From positions 1 to 51,375 of IMG/VR virus record IMGVR_UViG_3300046808_000281: a DNA stretch of 51,375 nucleotides; one strand, written 5' to 3'. Position 1 is the first letter of the stretch; every line of letters starts with the position of its first letter. Positions 3,266 to 51,338 of this stretch are shown in pieces. The notes under the pieces were generated by a model. That model was not told the DNA's origin. It searched no databases and saw only the letters and a list, made by a program, of their open reading frames with translations. Source of the stretch: a virus. The translations under genes and the position numbers were made by a program.

Positions 3266-3748
3266 ATGCTAGGTTCATTTGGTTTATGGGCATCTTCCAA
3301 GGGAATGAGAGTAGTCTCAGACCTTGTTGGGATGACTCGTACAGATGCTACCGCTAAAATTATTGCAGATGGTCTTGTCCTTGGAACAGAGACCCCACAG
3401 CAATTTACAAATTCTGCAGATGAGTCTAAACACAATAAGATTGTAGATCAAACTCCAGATGCAGGAGTCCAGGCACCATATGAATCTGCTGTAGATGTTG
3501 TTTATGGTGTCTTTAGCTTTAGCGTATTTGGTGTATTTGGATTTGTTCCAGCATTTGGTGTGTTTGGATTTACGCCTACGTTTAACGTATTTAGCTTTAC
3601 TGTTTTCAATGTATTTAGCTTTACACCATTTACCGTTTTTGGATTCTCATTCTCAGTATTTACCTTTACACCAACGTTTGCTGTGTTTGGATTCTCGTTT
3701 AGCGTATTCAGCTTTACTCCAACGTTCTCAGTATTTGGTTTTAGATAG
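3266..3748 (+). CDS. PASTA-domain protein with FG-rich phenylalanine repeat tail
   Basis: 160 residues. Residues about 15-79 match the PASTA fold (VVSDLVGMTRTDATAKI..., ...VDQTPDAGVQAPYESAVDVVYG), a module that in bacterial penicillin-binding proteins and Ser/Thr kinases binds peptidoglycan fragments. The remaining ~80 residues are an extreme repeat of xVFxF[T/V/S]Px F-type units (for example GVFGFVPAF, GVFGFTPTF, SVFSFTPTF) ending SVFGFR. Phenylalanine alternates with small residues, as in a beta strand with one aromatic face. A second protein (9807-10601) carries the same tail and the same last residues. Probably a cell-wall-binding virion protein; the tail's role is unknown. The 3' end overlaps the convergent endolysin by 8 bp. 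Confidence 0.65.
   Translation: MLGSFGLWASSKGMRVVSDLVGMTRTDATAKIIADGLVLGTETPQQFTNSADESKHNKIVDQTPDAGVQAPYESAVDVVYGVFSFSVFGVFGFVPAFGVFGFTPTFNVFSFTVFNVFSFTPFTVFGFSFSVFTFTPTFAVFGFSFSVFSFTPTFSVFGFR
3503..3745 (+). repeat. Coding repeat for VFGF/VFSF units (copy 1)
   Basis: About eight degenerate units of 21-27 bp encode [G/S/N/T/A]VF[G/S/T]F, often followed by [T/V]P[T/A]F. Codons vary between units (gtatttggattt, gtgtttggattt, gtttttggattc, gtgtttggattc), so selection is acting on the peptide, not on recent DNA duplication. Confidence 0.8.
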
Positions 3749-9806: not shown

Positions 9807-10601
9807 ATGGCAGCAGGTAAAAGAGCAGGTAGACATGCTCAGCAGTCTAATGATTTTCTACAGCCACTAGCACCAATTAATATTGTTGCTACTGATGTCG
9901 GAACAAATAGGGCATATGATAATGGTGCTGCCTCTGTAGCATTTGGATTGCCTGCTAATTCTCCAGCTGCTACTTCTTATACTGTCACAGCATCAACTGG
10001 TCAGACAGCTACTGGATCGTCTTCACCTATTGTGGTCGCTGGTATTGCTACAGGTGCAACTCCAACATTTACTGTAACTGCAACAAACAGCTATGGGACA
10101 TCTAGTGCCTCTGATGCATCATCTGCAATTACAATCACAACTGTTCCAGCTGCACCAACTGGAGTAAGTGCATCTTCTCCATCTGGAGCAAACTATGATA
10201 CAGTTACTTGGACTGCACCAGCAAATGGTGGTAAAGCAATTAGCAATTACTACGTTACGTCTGATGACGGTAAGACAGCCAATACCTCTTCTACTTCTGT
10301 AAATATTACTCAGGAGCAAGGTACAGCTCAAACATATACAGTTTATGCAGACAATGCTAACGGTAGATCTGCAGCATCTGCTGCATCTGGAAGCGTAACA
10401 ACATTCTCATTCGTGCCATTCTCAGTATTTAGCTTCTTTGGGGTATTTAGCTTCTTTGGAGTGTTTGGGTTCGTGCCAACCTTTGGAGTATTCGGATTCG
10501 TGCCATTCTCAGTATTTGGTTTCTTTGGTGTGTTTGGATTCGTACCATCATTTGGTGTATTTGGATTCACCCCCTCATTCTCAGTATTCGGCTTTAGATA
10601 A
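9807..10601 (+). CDS. Fibronectin-III-like protein with FG-rich phenylalanine repeat tail
   Basis: 264 residues. Two Fn3/Ig-like domains (about residues 25-115 and 115-198) show the usual 'P.aPtgvsasspsg...vtWtaPanGGkaIsnYyV.s.dg' pattern. Residues 200-264 are a repeat tail of VFGF/VFSF units with FF, VPTF, VPSF and TPSF linkers, ending SVFGFR, exactly like the product of 3266-3748. One in two to three residues of the tail is Phe. Fn3 domains are common on phage virions, where they bind carbohydrate. The tail could stick the two proteins together or to a membrane or wall. Ribosome site GAGGA precedes the ATG. Confidence 0.65.
   Translation: MAAGKRAGRHAQQSNDFLQPLAPINIVATDVGTNRAYDNGAASVAFGLPANSPAATSYTVTASTGQTATGSSSPIVVAGIATGATPTFTVTATNSYGTSSASDASSAITITTVPAAPTGVSASSPSGANYDTVTWTAPANGGKAISNYYVTSDDGKTANTSSTSVNITQEQGTAQTYTVYADNANGRSAASAASGSVTTFSFVPFSVFSFFGVFSFFGVFGFVPTFGVFGFVPFSVFGFFGVFGFVPSFGVFGFTPSFSVFGFR
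10404..10598 (+). repeat. Coding repeat for VFGF/VFSF units (copy 2)
   Basis: About eight units encode FSVFSFF, GVFGFVPTF, GVFGFVPF and similar. The unit differs slightly from copy 1 in having FF and VPF linkers, but the last unit and final Arg are the same. Confidence 0.8.
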
Positions 10602-10624
10602 CCACAGATACCCCTGCTATGGTG

Positions 10625-10630
10625 TATAAT
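10625..10630 (+). promoter_or_regulatory. -10 promoter for the 2OG oxygenase cluster
   Basis: TATAAT preceded directly by TG. Start predicted near 10637, giving a ~20-nt leader with GGAG at 10648-10651 ahead of the ATG at 10659. Confidence 0.6.
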
Positions 10631-10658
10631 ATATACATACATAGAACGGAGTATGAGG

Positions 10659-11318
10659 ATGTATAAGGACCAAACTCCCCTACGAAGCATTAGCAAAACA
10701 ACGCAGGGGCACAAATTTTTTGAACGCTATCTTGATAATGATCTAGATGTTTTAGCAAAAGAGCTACAGGCTAGATATGAGCTTATTGAACAGGCTAAGA
10801 TTCCAGGGGTAACCCCAGTAAGCCCGTTTGAGGCATGGAAAGATTCTAACAGTATTTCAACAATGAAGTGGAGACAATATAATGTCTTCCAATTCCACAT
10901 TGATGGAATCTATGAGCTATACAAGGCCGTTGGCGATATGGTTAGAGAAGCCTGTGACCACTACGAGCTTGATTTTGATGAGCAAAAGTTTATGATTCAG
11001 GGATGGTTTAATATAAACCACTCTGGTAACGGAAAGCTTAACTGGCATGAGCATGGTGGTCCTGGAGCACCAGATTTCCACGGGTATTATTCAGTTGCAG
11101 CAGAGCCTTCTTCAACACACTACATTGTTTTTGATAATGAGGTTGAGAATATCAATAAGAATAATCGTGCCATCCTGTCTGAGATGGGTCACCCACACGC
11201 AATGGGAGACTGGGACTGGGATGGACCAAGAATCACGGTTGCATATGACGTAACTCCACTGGAGTACTTGAAGCGTGGAGGACACTCTCAAGAGCAGCAC
11301 TGGATCCCATTGAGATGA
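10659..11318 (+). CDS. Putative 2OG-Fe(II) oxygenase, paralogue 1
   Basis: 219 residues from the second ATG, which is 7 nt after GGAG; the ATG at 10653 is only 1 nt after it. After a divergent N-terminal half (HKFFERYLDNDLD...) comes a double-stranded beta-helix-like core: QGWFNIN, then His130-Glu-His132, HGYYSVAAEPSSTHY, LSEMGHPH (His178/His180), and Arg191 in RITVAYDV. The order H...H...R fits 2OG-Fe(II) oxygenases of the PF13759-like type, but the first motif reads HEH, not the usual HxD, so the metal ligands need testing. First of three tandem paralogues; its stop overlaps the next ATG (ATGA). Substrate unknown. Confidence 0.6.
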   Translation: MYKDQTPLRSISKTTQGHKFFERYLDNDLDVLAKELQARYELIEQAKIPGVTPVSPFEAWKDSNSISTMKWRQYNVFQFHIDGIYELYKAVGDMVREACDHYELDFDEQKFMIQGWFNINHSGNGKLNWHEHGGPGAPDFHGYYSVAAEPSSTHYIVFDNEVENINKNNRAILSEMGHPHAMGDWDWDGPRITVAYDVTPLEYLKRGGHSQEQHWIPLR

Positions 11319-11992
11319 TCGCTATGACAAAGCCACCACAGAAGTTTTTTGAAAGATATGTCGATGTGACACAAGAAGAGTTGGACAGTCTTTATGATTT
11401 TTGTGTTGCTCGTGAAAAGGACATGCTAGATGGAAAGTTCCCAGGCATAGAGGCAGATGAGGCAAAATCATACCACGAAAAGGGTGGTATGATGACTAGA
11501 ACTCTTAGCAAGTATAATGTATTTCAATTACATCATCCAGTCATCAGAAAGCTTCTTGGCTCTGTAAGAGATATGACAAAAGAAGCATGTCAGTATTATG
11601 GCAAAGACTTTGAGTCAGAGGCATATTACATTCAGGGATGGATAAACATAGAGCCAGCTGACTATGGAGATGAAGATTTTTATGCCCAGACTATGATTGA
11701 GCCAAACCTTCATGAACATTGTGGTGGCCTTGGGATGCCTGACCTACACGGATACTTTTCAGTATTTGCAGAGCCATCTGTAACTCATTACAGAATTGAT
11801 AAGGTAACTCCATTTGAAAATGTTAATAAAAACTTCAGAGCTGTTTTGTCAGAAACTGGACACCCACACACACGTGGATGGTGGGGTAACAAAGAAAAGC
11901 GTAGAATAACCATTGCATACGATACTAGAAGTATTCATGATATTTCAAACGGAGAAGCTGGATTGGAGCAACATTGGATACCGCTAGTGTAG
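11315..11992 (+). CDS. Putative 2OG-Fe(II) oxygenase, paralogue 2
   Basis: 225 residues, tandem paralogue of the previous and following genes. Conserved points are FFERYVDV at the start, QGWINIEP, His133-Glu-His135, HGYFSVFAEPSVTHY, VNKNFRAVLSETGHPH (His183/His185) and Arg197 in RRITIAYDT, ending EQHWIPLV like paralogue 1 (EQHWIPLR). It starts at the ATGA overlap with paralogue 1; an ATG at 11324 is an alternative. The conserved C-terminal HWIPL suggests close common ancestry with paralogue 1. A short insert (about residues 115-128) before the HEH motif is its main difference. Confidence 0.6.
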   Translation: MIAMTKPPQKFFERYVDVTQEELDSLYDFCVAREKDMLDGKFPGIEADEAKSYHEKGGMMTRTLSKYNVFQLHHPVIRKLLGSVRDMTKEACQYYGKDFESEAYYIQGWINIEPADYGDEDFYAQTMIEPNLHEHCGGLGMPDLHGYFSVFAEPSVTHYRIDKVTPFENVNKNFRAVLSETGHPHTRGWWGNKEKRRITIAYDTRSIHDISNGEAGLEQHWIPLV

Positions 11993-12639
11993 TAAAAGAT
12001 CACAAATTTTTTGTCAGAGATCTGTCCATAGACCTTGAAAAACTAAAGGCTTGGACAATTGATCTTGACGATAGTATTAGATCTGGTAAGCTTGAGATAG
12101 GTGCTAGCAAAGAGATGCTAGATGTCTATCGTAACAGAACTTCTGGTGCTGGGACAGCTTTGCTCTCTCACTATAATATTTTTGAGATGAACAATCCAGA
12201 CCTGAATGTTCTTAAGAATGCAATCAACAATGCTTTGCTAGAGGCATGCGACTACTATGGCATAGACTATGACTCAGAAGAATGGTACCTGCACGGATGG
12301 TACAATAGAAATGATCAAGACGGCATGTGGGATGTATCACCTATTGACAATGAAGATAAGTGGCATGAGCACATGAATGGTGTTGGGGCTCCAGTATTCC
12401 ACGGTTACTACTGTGTAAATGCAGAGCCATCTGTAACAGTCTATAAAATATTTAAAAATCCAGAAAATATAAAAGTGAATGTCAATAAAAACAATAGGAT
12501 GATTCTTTCTGAAGTCGGACACCCACATGGAATGGGTAACTGGAGAGTTAGCGATCAAAGAATTACACTGGCATACGATGTAGCACCAAGAGCTTATATT
12601 GGTGATGAAGATGCAGAGACCTGGACAAGGCTAAACTAA
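11974..12639 (+). CDS. Putative 2OG-Fe(II) oxygenase, paralogue 3
   Basis: 221 residues, the most diverged of the three tandem copies. It keeps LHGWYNRND, His131-Glu-His133, HGYYCVNAEPSVTVY, VNKNNRMILSEVGHPH (His183/His185) and Arg196 in RITLAYDV, but lacks the HWIPL end. It overlaps the 3' end of paralogue 2 by 19 nt, and no later in-frame start precedes the conserved KFFVRDLS segment, so the overlap is real. Keeping three copies with identical presumed active-site residues argues for distinct substrates or partners, not decay. Confidence 0.6.
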   Translation: MDTASVVKDHKFFVRDLSIDLEKLKAWTIDLDDSIRSGKLEIGASKEMLDVYRNRTSGAGTALLSHYNIFEMNNPDLNVLKNAINNALLEACDYYGIDYDSEEWYLHGWYNRNDQDGMWDVSPIDNEDKWHEHMNGVGAPVFHGYYCVNAEPSVTVYKIFKNPENIKVNVNKNNRMILSEVGHPHGMGNWRVSDQRITLAYDVAPRAYIGDEDAETWTRLN

Positions 12640-12797
12640 TGAAAAACTGGCTTGTTAGAATAAAGTGTTTTATACTAGGACACAAAGTTATTGTTGGCAA
12701 TAAATGTCCAGTAACTGGTATTGTGAGGCTTGACTGTGAGTCATGTGGTGTATCTAACATGCCAAAGCATACAGACAAAGAGGGGATGTTTAGATGA
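12639..12797 (+). CDS. Small Cys-rich protein, DUF1660-like zinc-binding candidate
   Basis: 52 residues, read between paralogue 3 and the next oxygenase with a TAATG overlap on the left and an ATGA overlap on the right. The sequence has IKCFILGHKVI near the start, then KCPVT and DCESCGV. Cys10, Cys23, Cys33 and Cys36 with His15 could bind a zinc ion. The 'C..fGHk...C' opening recalls small prophage DUF1660 proteins. Perfect packing between neighbours supports it as a real gene despite its size. Confidence 0.6.
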   Translation: MKNWLVRIKCFILGHKVIVGNKCPVTGIVRLDCESCGVSNMPKHTDKEGMFR

Positions 12798-13321
12798 ATA
12801 AGACTGATGACATTAAATACATCAAAGGGTTTATGCCAAAGGATGTAGTAGATACCATCTTTGAGTATGCAAAGAAGTATGACTTAGAGTTCGATGAGTT
12901 TGGAAATCACGAAAAAGAATTCACTGTAAATGTATTCAAGAGATCTGATGAAGAGACAATGCATGTTAAGAATCTTGTAACTGAGTGGGGACTAAAGGTC
13001 TATGAGTTTGTTCTGGATACGTATGGTGGAGATTTTAAGTCATATGACCCAAACATGTCCCATATTGCTAGGTTTGAGCCAGGGTGGGGAATGCATGAGC
13101 ATTTTGATGCAAGCAAGCCAAATGATATTGCTACATTAATTTATATTAATAATAATTACTCTGGTGGAGACATATACTTCCCAGAATATGGTATTTCGCA
13201 TAAACCAGAGCCAGGAGACCTGCTAACTTTTCCAGACAATCCAGATTATGTGCATGGGGTAAGAGCAATATCTGATGGAATTCGTTACACAACTCCACGC
13301 TGGTTTACACGTATAGTATGA
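12794..13321 (+). CDS. Prolyl-4-hydroxylase-like 2OG-Fe(II) oxygenase
   Basis: 175 residues with a complete canonical motif set: His103-x-Asp105 (HEHFDAS), His154 (DYVHGVRAI) and Arg164 (RYTTPRWF) for 2-oxoglutarate. The framework GGDIYFPEYGISHKPEPGDLLTFPD is the signature of the P4H-type beta-helix. Family members hydroxylate prolines or other side chains using Fe(II), O2 and 2-oxoglutarate. It closes a four-oxygenase cluster. A collagen-like fibre with Y-position prolines, encoded at 478-1182, is an attractive candidate substrate, but this is inference. The TGA stop contributes the TG of the weak promoter for the next gene. Confidence 0.85.
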   Translation: MNKTDDIKYIKGFMPKDVVDTIFEYAKKYDLEFDEFGNHEKEFTVNVFKRSDEETMHVKNLVTEWGLKVYEFVLDTYGGDFKSYDPNMSHIARFEPGWGMHEHFDASKPNDIATLIYINNNYSGGDIYFPEYGISHKPEPGDLLTFPDNPDYVHGVRAISDGIRYTTPRWFTRIV

Positions 13322-13336: not shown

Positions 13337-16300
13337 ATGACAACATCTCTTGGGCTCTATACATCTAAAATTCTAAAGGAACATCCTCTGGGGCTTTGGC
13401 CACTCCAAGATAAGTGCGACTACCTATCCATTATGTCTGACTCTCAAAAAGACATGTCTTCTTGGTCTGTTATCAATGGAACAGTTTCTGCTACGTCAAC
13501 TTTAACAACCCCAATCCCATCAGCACAAGTTTTTAAGGTAAATACAGCAAATGTTGGTCAGACAAATGTTGCAATTGTTAAATTGGTTAGCGATGTCATT
13601 GGAGACTTTACGCAGCTAAATGAGTATCTTTCTACTTTTACACTTTCTACATTTCTTTATTCATCAACAGACAACATATTGTCAGCAAGCATTGGGCTAA
13701 CATACGTAGATCCAACATACGGAGATTTTAGGGTATTCAAGAGATTCCCACTTAGTGTTGCTGGAAAGTGGTTATTCCTATCTGAGACCTTCGATAGACC
13801 ATATGACCTAACATCAGAATATAGGCTATTTATAGAGATTGAGTTTCTGTCAAATAAAACTACAGACCCAATATTCTTCTTGATAAATGGACTTTCCTTG
13901 GGGCAGTGGTCAGAAGAGTTTCATTCAACTTCTCAGGGAGTTGTTCCAGAGCAAATAGTTGAAAAAATTGCTGGTATTGCATCTGGCACATCTGCAGTAA
14001 AGCTTTTGGCATCGGCAGAGTCTACAAAAGATGGATACGCCCTTGTTGATAACAATCAGCTAAAAGCAAGAAATGCTGGTATGCCATTGGTTTTTGGTTC
14101 AGACTCATCTTTAACTGTTTATGCAAATGGCACAAAGCCATCAGTTCTAATTCCTGGACTAGGATTCTTGAATGAAATTGGCAAAAACAAAAACTATACT
14201 CTTGAAACATGGCTAAGAATTAATCCATCATCTTATGAAGATACAAGAATTATTGGCCCAATCTCATCTTCAGATGGTCTATATGTTAATGGTCCATTCT
14301 TGAAACTAAAGATTGGCGATCTATCGTGCTCTCATTATGTATCAGAATGGTACAGACCAATGCTTATCCACATAGCAATATCTTCAGATAGAATAATAAT
14401 GCTTCTAAATGGTGAGCAGGTCGGTGAAATTATTGTAGATAGGTCTCAGCTAGATCTGCCAGCATTTTCTGTAGACGGTTTTGAACAGGACTGGATTGGG
14501 ATATACTCTGATGACTCTATTGACATGTTTGAACTTGGTCCAGTCTCCATCTATACTTATGCGATCTCTAATGTAATTGCTAAAAGAAGATGGGTCTTTG
14601 GTCAGGGCGTAGAAAATCCAGAAGCACTTAATGTTGCATATGGCGGAAAAAACATTTTCTTTGACTATCAGTTTGCAAAGTATTCATCAAACTACTCTTT
14701 CCCAAAAATTGGTCCATGGTCTAGCGGACTAACAAATAATCTTGCTACCGATACAGACTATCTAAAGTTACCATCCTTAAAAAAGATGTCTATTGTTTCT
14801 CCAGGGCTAAGCGAAAGCCAGTTACTTATAAACAATAAATCTTTGCAGAATGAAGATGATAAGTTCTTGGTATTTCCAGAAAATACATATGGTTATTTTG
14901 ATAACCTTAATGTTTTAAAAGAGGGGCTTGAGTCTTTTTATGCAACCTTTAAATCAAAAGCCCCAGTACAAAAAGACGAGACCCTAATTGAGATTAGAGA
15001 CAAATCAACTGGCGATTATTTTTCAATTGTTCTTAAAGAAACTGGAATAGACTACACCCTAAAGTTCCTTGGAGAGACAAAAGTAATTGCAGAAACACAG
15101 CAATACTATCCAGGAGAAAAATTTTCTGTAGGATTACACATACCAAGATTTGTAAGTTACTTTGGTAATGGAATATCTGCATTTTTTAGCAAGGCAGAAT
15201 CACTATCACTCTATATTGGTGGTACTGGCAGCTCAGATTCTTTCTCTGGAAACATTTACTCAGTTGCATTCAATAATCAGTTTGCAACAAATATGATTTC
15301 TGACTACTTTGCTCCAACTGGTATTGTTTGGGACGCAGATCTTGTTGAGGAGTTTCTACAAGATGCTGATGCAGGACTGTATAGTACAACATTTTGGGAG
15401 TACGTTCTTGATGGAGGAAGTGTAGCTGAGTATGCTGGCCAGGGACTTGTAGATAACAATAACGCAAGCTACACCATTAAAGTTTATGAAAACAGTAAGT
15501 CTATGTATTTAGATTCTAAAATTAATGGATCTTGGACATCAGCAATACCACTTTCATATTTTGGAAAATATGTTAAGAGGGCAAATGGATCTGGATACTA
15601 CGATCTAGACTTTATCCAGTTTAACATAGGATATCCGTCCCCAGGAAAGTCGGTAGCAGTTACTGAGCAAGACCAGTCTTGGACATATCAAGACCTAGAG
15701 CTAAAGTTTGCAAATCCATCACAAAAAGAGTATAGCGATTTGGATAATCATCTATATACTGGCTACAATGACTATAACGACCTAAGATATAATACTAGAC
15801 AAACCTACAAGTTTGATACATCAAAATCTATAGTAAGAAGCTACATCTATTTCAAGGACATTTCAGACGGAACAAGAGATAGCTCATACTACACTAATAC
15901 AGTATCAGCTCCCACAGATGGCATTATAACTCCTGGTAGCGAATGGGTTAACACAAAGTACGAAGTTGTTGATAACATGATTATCTATCCACCTAGTGAT
16001 GTAGACTTTACAAAAATCTCTATGTTTGTAGAACTAAAGATATCTGCTGACAAGGTATCCGAAAAGCCACTTGCAATAGGCAGCTTAGAACTATCATCAA
16101 TCTGCTTAAATGATGAAGAGCAGACTCCGATTGGAACTAGGTACGGCACAGATGTTTATCCATTTACAGAAAATGGTTTTTATTATGACTACAAGTCAAA
16201 AAATCCATTTAGCATATATAAGGGTAGCACCCCATATCTATACTTAACAAAGACTAGCGGAATAAAATTGCGTGGGCTCTTTAACGGCAAGAATGTCCGT

Positions 16301-16987
16301 GGAATTGAGATTCCAGTTAATAAAGAAAAAACAAACAATCACAAAATGATTGCTATGCAAATGTTTACAATGTTTGATGGAGACTTTTTCCCATATAGCC
16401 CTACAGAAGTATTTGAGATTATATCTAACACGTCACACCTAAAGTTCTATATAGAAGCAACCCACCCAGATGGTCTTAGAGCTAAGCTTTACGCCATTAA
16501 TGATAAAACTGGCCAGCTTGAGAATGGAATTGGATATTATGTTAATGGAAAAATCGTAAAAGAACCAATTTTGACAATTAAGCAGTGGGCATCGATCGGA
16601 ATTGGTTTGTCAAATTACCTTGATTTTGCAATCAATGGTGGGTCTATTAGGATCACTGGCCCACTCTTGGTGAATAACATATCACACTATAACTCTGTAA
16701 GACTTCAGCAGGTCCAGTCTGTATCTGTTAGGCCATGGTTCCTTGTGAGAGAGTCTGGACGCATCAAGTTTGACTGGAGAGCCTGGGAAGGTGTCTTTAA
16801 GTGGTTTGAGGTTCTAGTACTTTCCTCACGTAACTTCTATGGTGTTGACCCAGCAGACATATACAATGCATATGTTGGCACTACAAGATTGATTGTAGAC
16901 GATAAATCTATTTTAAGACTACTTAGAACAAGATACAGGACTATTTCAGACTCATCGTCGCAAGTTTTTACAGTTAATGCTGTTTAG
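13337..16987 (+). CDS. Giant LamG/concanavalin-like virion protein
   Basis: 1216 residues, beta-rich. At least three jelly-roll-like segments can be seen by pattern: about residues 274-400 (NYTLETWLRI..., LLNGEQVGEIIVD), about 530-650 (FYATFKSKAPVQKDETLIEIRD), and about 1010-1130 (MFTMFDGDFFPYSP..., SIGIGLSNYLDFAINGG). LamG-type modules bind carbohydrate and are frequent in large minor tail proteins. The N-terminal 'KILKEHPLGLWPLQD' opening is typical of such phage LamG proteins. Location between the oxygenases and the portal is unusual for a tail protein. Function in receptor or surface-glycan binding is inferred. Confidence 0.65.
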   Translation: MTTSLGLYTSKILKEHPLGLWPLQDKCDYLSIMSDSQKDMSSWSVINGTVSATSTLTTPIPSAQVFKVNTANVGQTNVAIVKLVSDVIGDFTQLNEYLSTFTLSTFLYSSTDNILSASIGLTYVDPTYGDFRVFKRFPLSVAGKWLFLSETFDRPYDLTSEYRLFIEIEFLSNKTTDPIFFLINGLSLGQWSEEFHSTSQGVVPEQIVEKIAGIASGTSAVKLLASAESTKDGYALVDNNQLKARNAGMPLVFGSDSSLTVYANGTKPSVLIPGLGFLNEIGKNKNYTLETWLRINPSSYEDTRIIGPISSSDGLYVNGPFLKLKIGDLSCSHYVSEWYRPMLIHIAISSDRIIMLLNGEQVGEIIVDRSQLDLPAFSVDGFEQDWIGIYSDDSIDMFELGPVSIYTYAISNVIAKRRWVFGQGVENPEALNVAYGGKNIFFDYQFAKYSSNYSFPKIGPWSSGLTNNLATDTDYLKLPSLKKMSIVSPGLSESQLLINNKSLQNEDDKFLVFPENTYGYFDNLNVLKEGLESFYATFKSKAPVQKDETLIEIRDKSTGDYFSIVLKETGIDYTLKFLGETKVIAETQQYYPGEKFSVGLHIPRFVSYFGNGISAFFSKAESLSLYIGGTGSSDSFSGNIYSVAFNNQFATNMISDYFAPTGIVWDADLVEEFLQDADAGLYSTTFWEYVLDGGSVAEYAGQGLVDNNNASYTIKVYENSKSMYLDSKINGSWTSAIPLSYFGKYVKRANGSGYYDLDFIQFNIGYPSPGKSVAVTEQDQSWTYQDLELKFANPSQKEYSDLDNHLYTGYNDYNDLRYNTRQTYKFDTSKSIVRSYIYFKDISDGTRDSSYYTNTVSAPTDGIITPGSEWVNTKYEVVDNMIIYPPSDVDFTKISMFVELKISADKVSEKPLAIGSLELSSICLNDEEQTPIGTRYGTDVYPFTENGFYYDYKSKNPFSIYKGSTPYLYLTKTSGIKLRGLFNGKNVRGIEIPVNKEKTNNHKMIAMQMFTMFDGDFFPYSPTEVFEIISNTSHLKFYIEATHPDGLRAKLYAINDKTGQLENGIGYYVNGKIVKEPILTIKQWASIGIGLSNYLDFAINGGSIRITGPLLVNNISHYNSVRLQQVQSVSVRPWFLVRESGRIKFDWRAWEGVFKWFEVLVLSSRNFYGVDPADIYNAYVGTTRLIVDDKSILRLLRTRYRTISDSSSQVFTVNAV

Positions 16988-17005: not shown

Positions 17006-17383
17006 ATGAAAAAGCAAAAACCACGTTTTCCTGGTCAGGTTGGAGAAACTAAGGTTCAGGTAATTGAAGAAAACTTCTCTCTATTTGGTACCTATGTATG
17101 GACAAAGCCAAATGGCAAAGCATTTACAGATGGTCAAGGAAATGCCCTTTCTATTGAAGGCCTTAAAGATGACAAGGCAAAAATTAAAGAATTAGCTGAT
17201 GCAGCAAAGTATTGGGGGCAGCCAGAAGGACGTGCCGTATTCTACCCAAACATGAGAAAGATCTCAGACGAAGAATACTCTGAGCAAGTAGACAGAATGA
17301 ACAATGGCCTAATCCCATCTATGAATGACCTTGGTGCAGTTATTGCTGCAAAGAAAACTCTAGAACTTTATGGAGACGAATAA
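17006..17383 (+). CDS. Hypothetical head-module protein upstream of portal
   Basis: 126 residues from the ATG placed 7 nt after the -10 element. A conserved-looking N-terminus (KPRFPGQVGETKVQVIEENFSLFGTYVW) precedes a charged helical C-terminal half. No known family recognised. Its stop overlaps the portal start (TAATG), so it is probably co-translated with the portal. Position suggests a packaging or portal-associated role; this is inference only. Confidence 0.5.
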   Translation: MKKQKPRFPGQVGETKVQVIEENFSLFGTYVWTKPNGKAFTDGQGNALSIEGLKDDKAKIKELADAAKYWGQPEGRAVFYPNMRKISDEEYSEQVDRMNNGLIPSMNDLGAVIAAKKTLELYGDE

Positions 17384-19094: not shown

Positions 19095-20426
19095 ATGACT
19101 ATTTCTAAGGCACAGTGGACAACAGACGGAAATGATATCCGTCTCTCAATGCCACTCTCAAAAGTTGATCAGGAAAAGCGTATCGTTTCTGGCTTTGCCA
19201 CACTTGATAACCTAGACAAGCAGGCAGACATCGTAACCCCAGAAGCAAGCCTTAACGCATTCAAGAGATTCCGTGGAAATATTCGTGAAATGCATCAGCC
19301 AATTTCAGTTGGCAAGATGGTTTCATTTAAAGAAGAAAAGTTTTTTGATCCAGAGACAAAGAAAATGTATAACGGCATTTATGTTTCTGCATATGTTTCA
19401 AAGGGTGCTCAGGACACTTGGGAGAAAGTCCTTGATGGCACCCTTTCTGGTTTTTCTATCGGCGGTAGAATGAACAAGTGGGACGACGCTTATGACGAGA
19501 AGATGGATTCTGCAGTTCGTATCATCAAGGACTATGACCTAACAGAGCTATCACTTGTTGACAACCCAGCTAACCAATTTGCCAATATTCTTTCTGTACA
19601 GAAGGCAGATGGTGTTAACGAGATTTCTGGAATTGCTGCAGACACAACTATTGAAAATGTATTCTATGACAAGGAGTCTGGAATTGCAATGCTTTCTGAA
19701 GAAGAGACGATGTCTAGTCCAATCTCAGGTGAGCCAATGCAGAATATAGGTTTCGTTGAAAAGAATGACAGCGAAAAATCAGAAATGATAAAATTCTTAG
19801 TTGATAGTGCTAAAGGCATTAATCTTGCTAAGATGACAAAGGAGGTAAGTCCTATGACAGAAGAAACAACAGTTGAGGCAGCAGTAGAAAATACTGAAGC
19901 AGCAGATGTAGTTGTTGAAAATGCAGAGGTCGCTCCAGAGGCAGAAGTTGTAGCAGATGCTCCAGCAGCAGACGTTGAAAAGTCTGATGTTGTTGAGAAG
20001 AGCGACGACAAAGATGAAGATGACAAGCCAGGTACCGAAGTTATGGAAGAGTCAGACGATGCGTCTGGCGAAGAAGATGACAAGGAAGAGGCTAAGAAGT
20101 CAGATGATGTAGCAGACATTTCAAAGGCAGTTGCCGAAATGAAGGACTCTGTAACATCAGCCTTTAGCGATCTTGTATCAACAATCAAGTCAATGCAAGA
20201 AGAAATTTCTGTATTGACCAAATCACTAGATTCAGTAAAGAGTGAGGTAACTGAATCAAAGAGTGTATTTAACGAGTTTGGAAAGAGAGTAGATGCCGTA
20301 GAGGCAGACACAGCTTTCCGCAAGTCTGGCGATATCGGCGATATCGTGCAGGAACAGCCTGAGACACAGGTTGAAAAATCAATATGGGGCGGACGTTTCC
20401 TCAAAACTGCCGATCTATTCAGATAA
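19095..20426 (+). CDS. XkdF-like prohead protease with C-terminal scaffold domain
   Basis: 443 residues. Residues 1-175 match the XkdF-type phage serine protease: VDQEKRIVSGFATLDNLDKQADIV, His67 (REMHQP), the serine motif TLSGFSIGG (Ser121 most likely nucleophile) and DLTELSLVDNPAN. The second half is highly acidic and Ala/Glu/Val-rich (residues 254-335), then a coiled coil (about 355-395, SVTSAFSDLVSTIKSMQEE...), as expected for a scaffold. A strong internal ribosome site and in-frame ATG at 19854 separate the two halves. Protease and scaffold thus appear fused and also expressed separately, as in lambda C/Nu3. Confidence 0.85.
   Translation: MTISKAQWTTDGNDIRLSMPLSKVDQEKRIVSGFATLDNLDKQADIVTPEASLNAFKRFRGNIREMHQPISVGKMVSFKEEKFFDPETKKMYNGIYVSAYVSKGAQDTWEKVLDGTLSGFSIGGRMNKWDDAYDEKMDSAVRIIKDYDLTELSLVDNPANQFANILSVQKADGVNEISGIAADTTIENVFYDKESGIAMLSEEETMSSPISGEPMQNIGFVEKNDSEKSEMIKFLVDSAKGINLAKMTKEVSPMTEETTVEAAVENTEAADVVVENAEVAPEAEVVADAPAADVEKSDVVEKSDDKDEDDKPGTEVMEESDDASGEEDDKEEAKKSDDVADISKAVAEMKDSVTSAFSDLVSTIKSMQEEISVLTKSLDSVKSEVTESKSVFNEFGKRVDAVEADTAFRKSGDIGDIVQEQPETQVEKSIWGGRFLKTADLFR
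19854..20426 (+). CDS. Nested in-frame scaffold protein (internal start)
   Basis: AAAGGAGGT at 19838-19846 lies 7 nt before an ATG at 19854 that is in the same frame as the protease gene (codon 254). Translation from here gives a 190-residue protein consisting only of the acidic and coiled-coil part. The site is far better than the ribosome site of most genes in the window and sits exactly at the domain boundary. This is the arrangement of lambda Nu3 inside gene C: the short product serves as scaffold in excess over the protease. Confidence 0.7.
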   Translation: MTEETTVEAAVENTEAADVVVENAEVAPEAEVVADAPAADVEKSDVVEKSDDKDEDDKPGTEVMEESDDASGEEDDKEEAKKSDDVADISKAVAEMKDSVTSAFSDLVSTIKSMQEEISVLTKSLDSVKSEVTESKSVFNEFGKRVDAVEADTAFRKSGDIGDIVQEQPETQVEKSIWGGRFLKTADLFR

Positions 20427-26622: not shown

Positions 26623-29600
26623 ATGGCTGATATCCAATCAAATATTCGTGTCAATATAGATACTGCCGAAGCTCTGGCATCTATTAAGGCACTCCAAAGA
26701 CAGATATCAACCTTCCAGAAGGAGATGGCATCATCTTCGACTGCAAATGCTCTAGCTGCAAAAAATCTACAGAAATCATTAATAGATGATATTAATGCTA
26801 CTGGAAAGTTTTCTGCAAGCCTAAAGACAATTAGCTCTACTACAGACACATTTACAAAAGCACTTGAGAAGAATAAGCTCTCGCTTGGGCAGTATTTCAA
26901 ATATGGAATGGCTTCAAGCAAGAGCTTTTCTCGTATGTTCCAAAACGAGTTTGACACAGTTAATAAGGTTGCTCGTGAAAGAGTAAAGGATCTTCAAACA
27001 CAATATATCTCTCTTGGTAGAGATGCAAGCGGTGCACTAAAGTCTATTGCTGTTAGACCACTAGCACTTGACATGGAAGACCTTGGAACCAAAGCACAAA
27101 TCGCTGCACAGCGTACACAAATTTTTAATCAGATTCTTAAGCAAGGATCTACAAACCTTCTAAACTTTGGTAAGAATACCCAGTGGGCTGGTCGCCAGCT
27201 TATGGTTGGTTTTACCATTCCGCTATCTATTTTTGGAACTGCAGCTGCACAAGAGTTTAAGAAGGTTGAAGAGGCTTCGATTAAGTTTAGAAGAGTATAC
27301 GGCGATGCCTTTACTCCAGTAGAGCAAACTAACGCCATGCTTGACCAGATTAAAGAGCTTGGAATTGAGCTAACTAAGTATGGAATTAGCCTTGACCAAA
27401 CTCTAGGTCTGGCAGCAGATGCAGCAGCAATGGGTAACACTGGACAAAAGCTTATTGCTCAGGTAGAACAGTCAACAAAGCTTGCAGTTCTTGGACAGAC
27501 AGCAACCCAAGATGCATTGGCTACCACCATCTCTCTTACTGACGCTTTTGGATATTCAACAAAACAGCTTGCAGACAAAACAAACTTCCTTAACGCTGTA
27601 GAAAACCAAACAGTTCTTTCTATTGAGGACTTGACAACTGCAATTCCAAAGGCTGGACCAGTAGTTAAGCAGCTAGGTGGTGACGTAGAGGATCTATCAT
27701 TCTTCATGACAGCGATGAAGGAAGGTGGAATTAATGCATCAGAAGGTGCTAACGCTCTAAAGTCTGGTTTGGCATCTTTGATTAACCCAACAGAAAAAGC
27801 AAGAATGATGCTTCTTGGTATGGGTATCGATATGCGAAAGATTCTTGATACCAACCAGGGAAATGTTTCTGGCGTTGTAGTAGACTTTGCAAAGGCACTT
27901 GATCAACTAGATCCGACAACAAGAGCACAGGCAATTGAGCAGCTTTTCGGTAAGTTCCAGTTCTCACGTCTATCTACTCTATTCCAAAACGTAATTGCTG
28001 AGGGAACTCAGGCACAGCGTGTTCTAGAGCTAAGCAGTATGACAGCATCAGATCTTGCTGCACTATCTGCAAAAGAGCTTGCAACAGTAGAAGAGTCACC
28101 TCTATATAAGTTCCAGGCTGCACTTGAAAAGTTCCAAGCAGCAATGGCACCAGTTGGTGAACAGTTCATGAAGATGGTAACTCCATTTATTGAGTTTGGA
28201 ACAAAGATTTTGAACATGTTTAATGGCATGACTGATGGTGCAAAGGGATTCATTACCACAATTGTAGGTTTGGCTGGTGTAGTTGCTCCAGTGTTTATTA
28301 TGGCATTTGGTCTTATCGCTAACGCTCTTGCGAACGGTATGAAGGGGTTCTTGTTCCTAAAGAATGCACTACAGGGAACACTAAAGGAAACTAATGATCT
28401 AGGTGAGCAAACTCAGTACATGACATCTGAGCAACTGCAAGCAGCAGCTGTAGCATCATCGCTTGATCAGGTTCATGGAAAACTTGTTCAAACATTTACA
28501 TCTGAAGCAGGTGCTATTGATAAGCTTCGTACTGCAATGGAGAGAGCAGCACTTGCACAAGCTAAGTTTGGTGGTGTTAGCGTAGCTCGTGGAGCTAAGC
28601 CAAAGAACTTTGCAGATGGTGGAATGGTTGTTTCTGGTCCAGGTGGACCAAAGGGAGACAAGATTCCTGCAAACCTTTCTGACGGAGAAGTTGTTCTATC
28701 TGCAGAGACAGTACAGGAAAATCCAAATATTGTTGCAGCACTTCTAGCAGGTGGAAAAGTAAAGATTCCAGGATTTAAAAAGGGTGGTGGCCCAGGATCT
28801 CCAAAGGGTTCTATATCATTTGGCGACTCCTCTATGGACATTAATGCTTCACAAACAGCAATAGACAGAATTCAGACAATCCTTGACGGTATAACAGATG
28901 ACTTTATTAAGGTAGATCAAAAGGGTGACGTAATTGAAAAGCTATTTGCTTCTTTGGCAACTATGTCAGAAGAAGGCAAGGTAAGCCTAAAGAAGTTCTT
29001 CCAGGCATTTGCAGTAGCAGCAGAGGATGTTAGCGGTCAGAATGTCTCTAATCAAGTAAATAAGTTCTATGCAGAAAACCTTGGCGTAAAGGGTAAGCCA
29101 ATGAAGTATTCTGCAACTGGTGTTGGAACTATTCAGCAGCAGGCAGATAAGGCAGGAAGAGCAGACGAGCTTCAGAGAGCAAGAATGCGTCTTGCTGCAG
29201 AAGAGTCTCTAGGACTTCCAGGCGGACAATACCAGATTGACAGAGCACACAGATTGCCAGTTGGTGGAGCTGCAAAGTCGTTGCCAGAAGCATGGGACAT
29301 GAAGGGCGTTAACCCTCAGACACACACTGAAAATCAGATTTCAAATTACTTAGCAGGAGAGCAAAAGGTAAAGGCTTTCTATGACAAGTACATGGCACAG
29401 CTAGAAAAGATGCGTACCGAGGGCAAGGTGTCTGAGGACCAATATCTATCTATTAAGAATAAGATTAATTCAAACCTTGCTCTTTCAGAAGTAGAGCTTG
29501 CAACCCAAGCAGACGTTCTTGAAGCAATCACTGCAGAAGACAAGAAAACTTGGGAAAGCTCTAAGGCTATGCAGAATGCATACAATGACTCAAAGAGAGC

Positions 29601-50526: not shown

Positions 50527-50794
50527 GAGCAAGAGGATAGGTGCTAAGCAGCATAAGAATTCTGGTAGGAATACCAAGAAGGGCGATGCTACTTGGCATA
50601 ACTTCACTGTTGACTTTAAAGAATATCCAAAAGGATTCACAGTTAACAAGGATAACTGGGCCAAGGCAGTAACTGATGCAATTCGAAACGGCAATGACCC
50701 AGCAATATTTGTTGTGCTTGGTGAGGGCAATCAGAAAGTAAGGCTTGCAATCGTTGAGCTAGAGCTTCTAGAGCAGCTTATAGATGATGTATAA
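50510..50794 (+). CDS. Putative Holliday junction resolvase (Hjc-like PD-(D/E)XK fold)
   Basis: 94 residues. The order KRIGAKQHKNSGRNTKKGDATWHNFTVDFKEYPKGFTVNKDNWAKAVTDAI...PAIFVVL fits a compact Hjc/endonuclease fold: an early helix with a KQxKNSGR loop, GDA (Asp of the PD motif), then VDFKEY, giving D-x-K, and a helix with W-x-K. Typical Hjc enzymes have 130-150 residues, so this is a short version. Its place next to the recombinase fits a role in resolving branched DNA before packaging. The stop TAA forms part of the next promoter's TATAAT. Confidence 0.6.
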   Translation: MSERSESKRIGAKQHKNSGRNTKKGDATWHNFTVDFKEYPKGFTVNKDNWAKAVTDAIRNGNDPAIFVVLGEGNQKVRLAIVELELLEQLIDDV

Positions 50795-50795
50795 T
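50790..50795 (+). promoter_or_regulatory. -10 promoter, leaderless start, overlapping a stop codon
   Basis: TATAAT preceded by TG; the TAA stop of the resolvase gene is part of the hexamer. It ends exactly 6 nt before the ATG at 50802 and has no ribosome site. Confidence 0.75.
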
Positions 50796-50801
50796 AGTAG
50801 C

Positions 50802-51338
50802 ATGACACAGCATATTAAAAATCTATTTGATGCAGAAGAGGTTGCCCTCATAGAGCAGATCGTCAATGACGAAAAGTCAAGACGTAAGGTATATGTTTGG
50901 GATGAGTTTAGCGGTCAGCAATTTCCGCAGGGAATAATGGATGATTCTGACTACATGGTGCAAAATGTTAGTCTTGGCAAAATTATGTTTAACCTAAGCC
51001 TACCAGATTTGATTAAGTCTAAGTTAGTAGATGTTGCTAAGGCTGGTGGTTTCGATGTTAACTACTTTTGTGCTACATATACAGAGTACTCAGCTGACTA
51101 TGGAAATCCAGTACTCACACCACATAAAGATATGCAAAATTTCTGTCTTATAGACTATCAGCTAGATGCCAACACTTCCTGGCCACTATTTGTTGAGGAT
51201 GATACGTTTGATCTAGATGTAAATGACGGACTAATGTTTCTCCCATCAAAGATGATGCACGGTAGACCAGATAAGGCATTTACTGATGGGGAATACGTCA
51301 AGATGATTTTCTTTGATATGAAGTTGGTGAATGAATGA
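50802..51338 (+). CDS. 2OG-Fe(II) oxygenase
   Basis: 178 residues from the leaderless ATG at 50802; an in-frame ATG at 50784 lies upstream of the promoter and is unlikely. Motif set: His108-Lys-Asp110 (TPHKDMQ), a sandwich LIDYQLDANTSWPLFVEDDTFDLDVNDGLMFLPS, then His153 (MMHGRPD) and a basic residue at 155 or 167 for 2-oxoglutarate. This fits the P4H/phytanoyl-type beta helix. It is the fifth oxygenase-like gene in the window and is expressed separately from the cluster at 10659-13321. Substrate unknown. Confidence 0.7.
   Translation: MTQHIKNLFDAEEVALIEQIVNDEKSRRKVYVWDEFSGQQFPQGIMDDSDYMVQNVSLGKIMFNLSLPDLIKSKLVDVAKAGGFDVNYFCATYTEYSADYGNPVLTPHKDMQNFCLIDYQLDANTSWPLFVEDDTFDLDVNDGLMFLPSKMMHGRPDKAFTDGEYVKMIFFDMKLVNE

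Follow-up and report, generated by a model that had tools for sequence, protein, structure and literature searches.

Which molecules do the oxygenases carried by aquatic phages modify? Genes for 2-oxoglutarate (2OG)-Fe(II) oxygenases and prolyl 4-hydroxylases (P4Hs) are among the commonest accessory genes of these phages; the use of P4H by aquatic viruses has been called cryptic (PMC9301287), and a role in DNA repair has been guessed for the 2OG oxygenases of cyanophages (PMC9146016). The question is raised here by a phage of lakes and estuaries, the IMG/VR virus record IMGVR_UViG_3300046808_000281 (51,375 bases, the whole stretch analyzed and hereafter the window). Three tandem genes of a family designated A (A1, A2 and A3) and one prolyl-hydroxylase-type gene (P) follow directly on the gene for a tail protein that ends in Phe/Pro repeats. 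In hundreds of related viral contigs, a change of repeat type is accompanied by a change in the type of oxygenase in this slot, a pattern suggesting that the enzymes complete the tail protein chemically. Hydroxylation by A and P of the Phe/Pro repeats of this neighboring protein is the best explanation of the slot, and one to which we would give an even chance of being correct. An earlier sequence-only reading had proposed four oxygenase-type open reading frames (ORFs) here, and all four were found where it had placed them; the repeat protein directly upstream of A1 was absent from its proposal. The slot is composed as follows.

9807-10601, + strand: FN3-type tail protein with C-terminal Phe/Pro repeats at about 10377-10598 (FSFVPFSVFSFFGVFGFVPTFGVFGF...), the preferred substrate candidate
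10659-11318, + strand: A1, family A oxygenase-like, from an AlphaFold2 model, fold matches and conservation; HxH at 11046-11054, distal His at 11196-11198, Arg at 11229-11231
11315-11992, + strand: A2, paralogue of A1 (phmmer E 3e-44 against A1), overlapping A1 by 4 bases
11974-12639, + strand: A3, paralogue of A1 (phmmer E 7e-39 against A1), TTG start, overlapping A2
12794-13321, + strand: P, prolyl-hydroxylase-type 2OG-Fe(II) oxygenase (over the PF13640 cut-off, with profile and fold matches); His at 13100-13102, Asp at 13106-13108, His at 13253-13255, Arg at 13283-13285
13337-16987, + strand: large protein of 1216 amino acids closing the slot, a conserved downstream neighbor

Enzyme P passed the Pfam cut-off for 2OG-FeII_Oxy_3 (PF13640; 30.3 versus 27 bits), and its metal and 2OG ligands H103, D105, H154 and R164 were invariant across 25 relatives. 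Profile comparison with solved structures matched P to human prolyl 3-hydroxylase 1 (P3H1), a Bacillus P4H and the P4H of Paramecium bursaria chlorella virus 1 (PBCV-1). The predicted structure (predicted local distance difference test score, pLDDT, of 90.9) is a double-stranded beta-helix whose best Foldseek match was the PBCV-1 viral collagen prolyl hydroxylase (vCPH, 5c5t; E 1.4e-10), with bacterial P4H, P3H1 and PHD2 as further close matches. P resembles enzymes that hydroxylate peptidyl proline, and both sequence and model predict a prolyl-hydroxylase type, in agreement with the P4H-like assignment originally made from its HxD...H...R motif. Like P, vCPH is a small virus-encoded protein with the prolyl-hydroxylase fold; unlike P, it comes from a eukaryotic algal virus, and the two share approximately 18% identity. 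We know of no report of vCPH in a tail-gene slot whose enzymes change with the repeat protein.

The tandem paralogy proposed for A1, A2 and A3 was confirmed (phmmer E 3e-44 to 1e-35), with the motif series HxH..HGYY..GHPH..RIT kept in all three. A short-peptide scan of viral contigs yielded 163 relatives, and 80 loci were retained from these; comparison with four relatives placed the A1 of the window under strong purifying selection (ratio of nonsynonymous to synonymous substitution rates, dN/dS, 0.02-0.04). By sequence, nothing rose above chance for family A in Pfam, NCBIfam or solved structures: 76 members searched against Pfam hit no family beyond chance, PF13759 (2OG-FeII_Oxy_5) was absent from the families listed as matched, and A1-A3 themselves had no match. 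The sole sound profile match of A1 was PHROG 2696, of unknown function. The same kind of scan across 84,980 bacterial and archaeal species genomes returned no relative of A, and therefore no host-derived homologue from which to infer function. The AlphaFold2 model of A1, built from the alignment (pLDDT 93.1; predicted template modeling score, pTM, 0.90), is nonetheless a double-stranded beta-helix, the fold of the 2OG-Fe(II) oxygenase superfamily. The closest solved folds were the bacterial 2OG-FeII_Oxy_5-type proteins 3bvc and 2rg4, of unknown function (Z 16.6 and 16.5; for Z 16.6, root-mean-square deviation 2.8 A over 173 residues), which share 16% identity with A, followed by the hypoxia-inducible factor prolyl hydroxylase PHD2 (Z 14.0); the viral fold matches were cyanophage oxygenases.

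The near-invariant residues of A include H132-[DE]-H134, H143, H180, H182 and R193. The H132-[DE]-H134 motif was kept in 74 of 76 members, with no acid at the +2 place, and the distal His and Arg (H182 and R193) were likewise present in 74 of 76. Alignment with a cyanophage 2OG-FeII_Oxy_5 protein shows a comparable HxH stretch in 2rg4/3bvc. Because the HxD/E carboxylate is missing, A is called oxygenase-like and not a canonical member of the superfamily. A halogenase site (HxG/HxA) was considered, position 136 being mostly Gly or Pro, and was not adopted, as a distant ACG-2014b homologue has Trp there and keeps HxH. Comparison of A with P by hhalign gave no detectable relation, and thus no sign that one is a recent paralogue of the other. 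The ORF of A1 spans 10653-11318, and its second ATG at 10659, the start chosen in the sequence-only reading, has better spacing from the Shine-Dalgarno site (ACGGAG, 10646-10651) than the first ATG. Just 5' of A1, TGGTGTATAATATA at 10620-10633 resembles an extended -10 promoter, with only looser matches elsewhere in the window; a promoter and terminator scan of the slot gave no signal above shuffles, and an Rfam search gave no match. Between A3 and P (12640-12795) lies a small unlisted ORF of approximately 51 codons with CxxC-like spacing.

The arrangement of the slot is conserved. The order repeat protein, A (one to four genes), P (none to two) and large downstream protein was found in most of the 80 viral contigs or loci, a recurrence that places the cluster far beyond chance. 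Of 81 sources, 79 contained a relative of the repeat protein, usually located immediately or a short distance upstream of A. Homologues of the 9807-10601 protein match Pfam fn3. Synonymous codons vary within its repeats, which are of the FGVFGFVP type; the pattern is therefore maintained at the level of the protein. Searches of 50,697 phage records with the repeat protein and with one FFPP-type P enzyme found no relatives. Where contigs carry a capsid protein about 80-88% identical to that of the window and no A, the slot holds P4H-like arrays (up to nine genes counted), DUF6065 genes and a B12-type ribonucleotide reductase gene (nrdJ), and the upstream protein has FFPPFFPPYFPFF repeats at its end, in many cases together with a Cys-rich tail. 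Such tails, with three or more Cys among the final 25 residues, are common in FFPP-repeat proteins (L168:3838-4809, L201 and others) and occur in almost no FGVF-type protein. In loci L166-L171, up to nine consecutive or nearly consecutive P4H-like 2OG genes and DUF6065 lie between the tail repeat gene and nrdJ (e.g. G010:C1:37000-56900).

Comparison of repeat types, or grammars, revealed a consistent pairing with enzyme content. Repeats of the FGVFGFxP type are accompanied by A, usually plus P; FFPPFFPPYFP repeats by P-like enzymes in arrays of as many as nine, without A; proline-free NYSNFYN (NFYN) repeats by A and no P (L184 and L235); and FTPYSFTPY (FTPY) repeats by no A, no P in five of six loci, and sulfotransferase-like genes in part. 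One FTPY locus, L178, carries an Asp/Asn beta-hydroxylase gene (PF05118, E 5e-16). In a pooled sample, comprising loci drawn with an alignment of the FN3 N-terminus and loci already in hand, with duplicates removed, 54 of 55 FFPP loci lacked A and 50 of 55 had at least two P genes. A was present in 59 of 68 loci with other grammars (Fisher p 6e-24 against FFPP, kinship ignored), a class in which the pooled set favors A because loci first found via A are included. The proline fraction of the repeats rose with the number of P genes across the pooled loci (rho 0.74). A second, independent sample was drawn by repeat DNA patterns alone (FGVF and FFPP), using loci with at least 2.5 kilobases (kb) downstream. 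Here A lay within 4 kb in 32 of 37 FGVF loci versus 1 of 79 FFPP loci (p 3e-22), and two or more P genes in 0 of 37 versus 47 of 79 (p 2e-11). L184:7923-9610 encodes a tandem pair of FN3 proteins whose NYSNFYNFYN repeats lack proline; a single A gene and no P follow.

The kinship of 68 loci was represented by a tree of four upstream tail-gene markers, which requires five or more switches of repeat class. Among five independent pairs, the change went in the same direction for P-arrays in a mean of 4.6 pairs and for loss of A in 3.6, and never in the opposite direction for either. Two loci within an FFPP clade, L039 and L060, have FGVF-type repeats and two A genes.

The repeat grammar is shared by a second tail protein of the window:

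3266-3748, + strand: second Phe/Pro-repeat protein, with a PASTA domain (Pfam PASTA E 8.5e-6, over the cut-off) and FTPTFSVFGF repeats

This protein and that at 9807-10601 are unlinked and have the FSVFGFR ending in common, and in many genomes the second repeat protein is encoded approximately 6 kb upstream of the FN3 protein. Likeness in repeat composition of the two was 0.52 within genomes and 0.32 across genomes (permutation p 5e-5, inflated by related genomes). The shared grammar argues for something acting in trans, such as shared enzymes or assembly, that keeps it common.

Taken together, the slot would encode modification enzymes for the phage's own tail. A1-A3 and P, expressed late, would most likely hydroxylate the Phe/Pro repeats at the C-terminus of the 9807-10601 protein, and the PASTA-repeat sister protein would probably be modified as well. 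P would act on the Pro of the repeats; A would act on Phe, Asn or Tyr, as a residue common to the grammars FGVFGFxP and NFYN. The repeats are very hydrophobic, and hydroxylation would raise their polarity or adhesiveness and tune receptor binding or assembly. The analysis establishes what the genes are, which folds are predicted for their products, that the slot is conserved and that enzymes and repeats covary; the catalysis, the residues targeted and the consequence for the virion are inferred from this. Counted in support are the sulfotransferase- and glycosyltransferase-like genes found, with nrdJ, inside the slot of some loci (reductase and glycosyltransferase names by sequence reading) and the Hint/intein-like C-terminal domains of some repeat proteins. 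The latter (L021:7868-9229, L166:9868-11181, L080:2-1018 and others; Hint_2 E 2e-4, Intein_splicing E 3e-3) suggest, from sequence, autoprocessing of tail proteins. Phage-encoded modification of virion proteins has a precedent in mycobacteriophage virion glycosylation, reportedly described by Freeman et al. in 2023, which differs in being sugar transfer and not hydroxylation. A broader reading, tentative and in our estimation somewhat short of an even chance, is a repeat-modification code in which the FGVFGFxP, FFPP, FTPY and NFYN grammars would each have their own phage enzyme set (oxygenases of type A; arrays of as many as nine P4H-type enzymes; a sulfotransferase together with an Asp/Asn hydroxylase), sometimes with Hint maturation. 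The outcome would be hydroxylated adhesive tails like extensins and mussel-foot proteins, and A would be a new HxH family of protein hydroxylases.

Several observations weigh against hydroxylation of the repeats. Family A lacks the facial-triad carboxylate of canonical enzymes; in 16 of the 79 FFPP loci a P gene is absent from the adjacent 4 kb; and at 12 loci Pro-containing repeats are accompanied by A in the absence of P, which means that such repeats do not depend on P. The slot of relatives also holds nrdJ. Cyanophage 2OG-Fe(II) oxygenase clusters (S-RIM50, ACG-2014b) are similar in that several tandem oxygenases, with distant A- and P-like members, lie between baseplate-lysozyme and tail-fiber genes, yet no Phe/Pro-rich repeats were found beside them in the 16 kb examined. 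With five independent pairs, a sign test is unable to reach 0.05, and the covariation may partly be linkage because adjacent genes can move as a block.

Alternatively, the oxygenases could serve auxiliary metabolism, with small molecules, cell-wall polymers, glycan polymers or host proteins such as EF-Tu as their substrates. The fold matches include a Pseudomonas P4H in complex with EF-Tu, and in relatives the neighborhood of the oxygenases holds nrdJ as well as carbamoyltransferase, sulfotransferase and DUF6065 genes. In one relative, L172 (G029:C1:86000-104000), a NodU-like carbamoyltransferase gene stands beside a P4H-like gene, with methyltransferase-like and more P4H-like genes, off the tail slot. 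The constant position in the late tail block beside the repeat protein, and the tracking of tail repeat type by enzyme type, make auxiliary metabolism unlikely.

Linkage is the main rival to repeat hydroxylation: an adhesion module exchanged as a block would yield the repeat-enzyme link as a by-product, with the enzymes acting on another virion protein, be it the 13337-16987 product or other fibers. The downstream protein does border the slot in about 70 loci, and phages whose capsid proteins are similar exchange the cassette. Block transfer leaves unexplained why grammar tracks enzyme family over at least five switches, and why two distant repeat proteins share one grammar. FFPP repeats also occur on other scaffolds (PASTA-like and others) with a P-like gene no more than 4 kb downstream in 14 of 37, likewise unexplained, and we consider this alternative improbable.

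The substrate originally proposed was a collagen-like fiber, encoded far to the left:

478-1182, + strand: collagen-like fiber, 16 Gly-X-Y triplets in two blocks, just under the Pfam Collagen cut-off

Hydroxylation of its Pro or Lys by P (and A) would stabilize a triple helix as in PBCV-1. The fiber itself is real but weakly matched (PF01391 at 26.2 bits, E 6.9e-6, against a cut-off of 27.2, which relatives pass), and the best fold match of P is to a collagen prolyl hydroxylase. Collagen co-occurs with A, in 29 of 34 A-bearing contigs versus 2 of 10 A-negative ones (p 2.5e-4, confounded by lineage), and three Gly-X-Pro triplets are present. Those three are, however, the only Pro at Y among the 16 triplets, and the gene lies approximately 10 kb from the cluster. 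The P-richest FFPP contigs are mostly without collagen, contig G042 has two collagen matches and no P match, and within A-bearing contigs the P-collagen link was not significant (22 of 24 versus 7 of 10, p 0.14). Collagen is a possible side substrate and not the best candidate, and as an explanation of the cluster it is doubtful. The sequence-only reading is thus partly supported: virion-fiber hydroxylation, with P of prolyl-hydroxylase type, is the best-supported idea, whereas collagen as main substrate is weaker. Finally, DNA or nucleotide modification or repair (TET/JBP- or AlkB-like), the earlier suggestion for phage 2OG oxygenases (reported in PMC9146016), finds a weak Tet_JBP match of P (E 0.053) but is very improbable given the far better matches of P to protein prolyl hydroxylases, by fold and profile, and its position among tail genes.

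Elsewhere in the window, tail fiber genes occupy 1-10.6 kb ahead of the oxygenase cluster, and a long tape-measure-like gene at 26623 and replication-like genes further right were named, as were the former, by reading the sequence. The gene at 20384 encodes the major capsid protein, being related to annotated capsid proteins, and a 545-amino-acid gene at 17383 was taken as portal by comparison of gene order with LukeCage. That Streptomyces phage of the Stanwilliamsviridae has a related capsid protein (44% identity) and, upstream of portal, a modification gene (glycosyltransferase) adjoining ribonucleotide reductase; unlike the window, it has no oxygenase annotated in that stretch. Phages with related capsid proteins infect actinobacteria. 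Two further labels from the sequence-only reading were not confirmed. The 13337-16987 protein, called LamG, matched no Pfam family at E up to 1, LamG/Laminin_G included. A supposed fifth oxygenase at 50802 (ORF 50784-51338) had no Pfam match; it has PHKD and MHG motifs by eye and one weak PHROG match annotated 'ferrochelatase' (E 4e-4), an annotation that may mislead because another PHROG so annotated (3531) matches P.

In the literature searched, no paper describing the link between repeats and enzymes was found. The covariation names a specific substrate candidate for these common accessory enzymes, predicts which enzymes pair with which repeats, and makes their role testable. If the proposed role is true, phages chemically finish the adhesive parts of their tails by hydroxylation, and family A would be a new protein-modifying enzyme.

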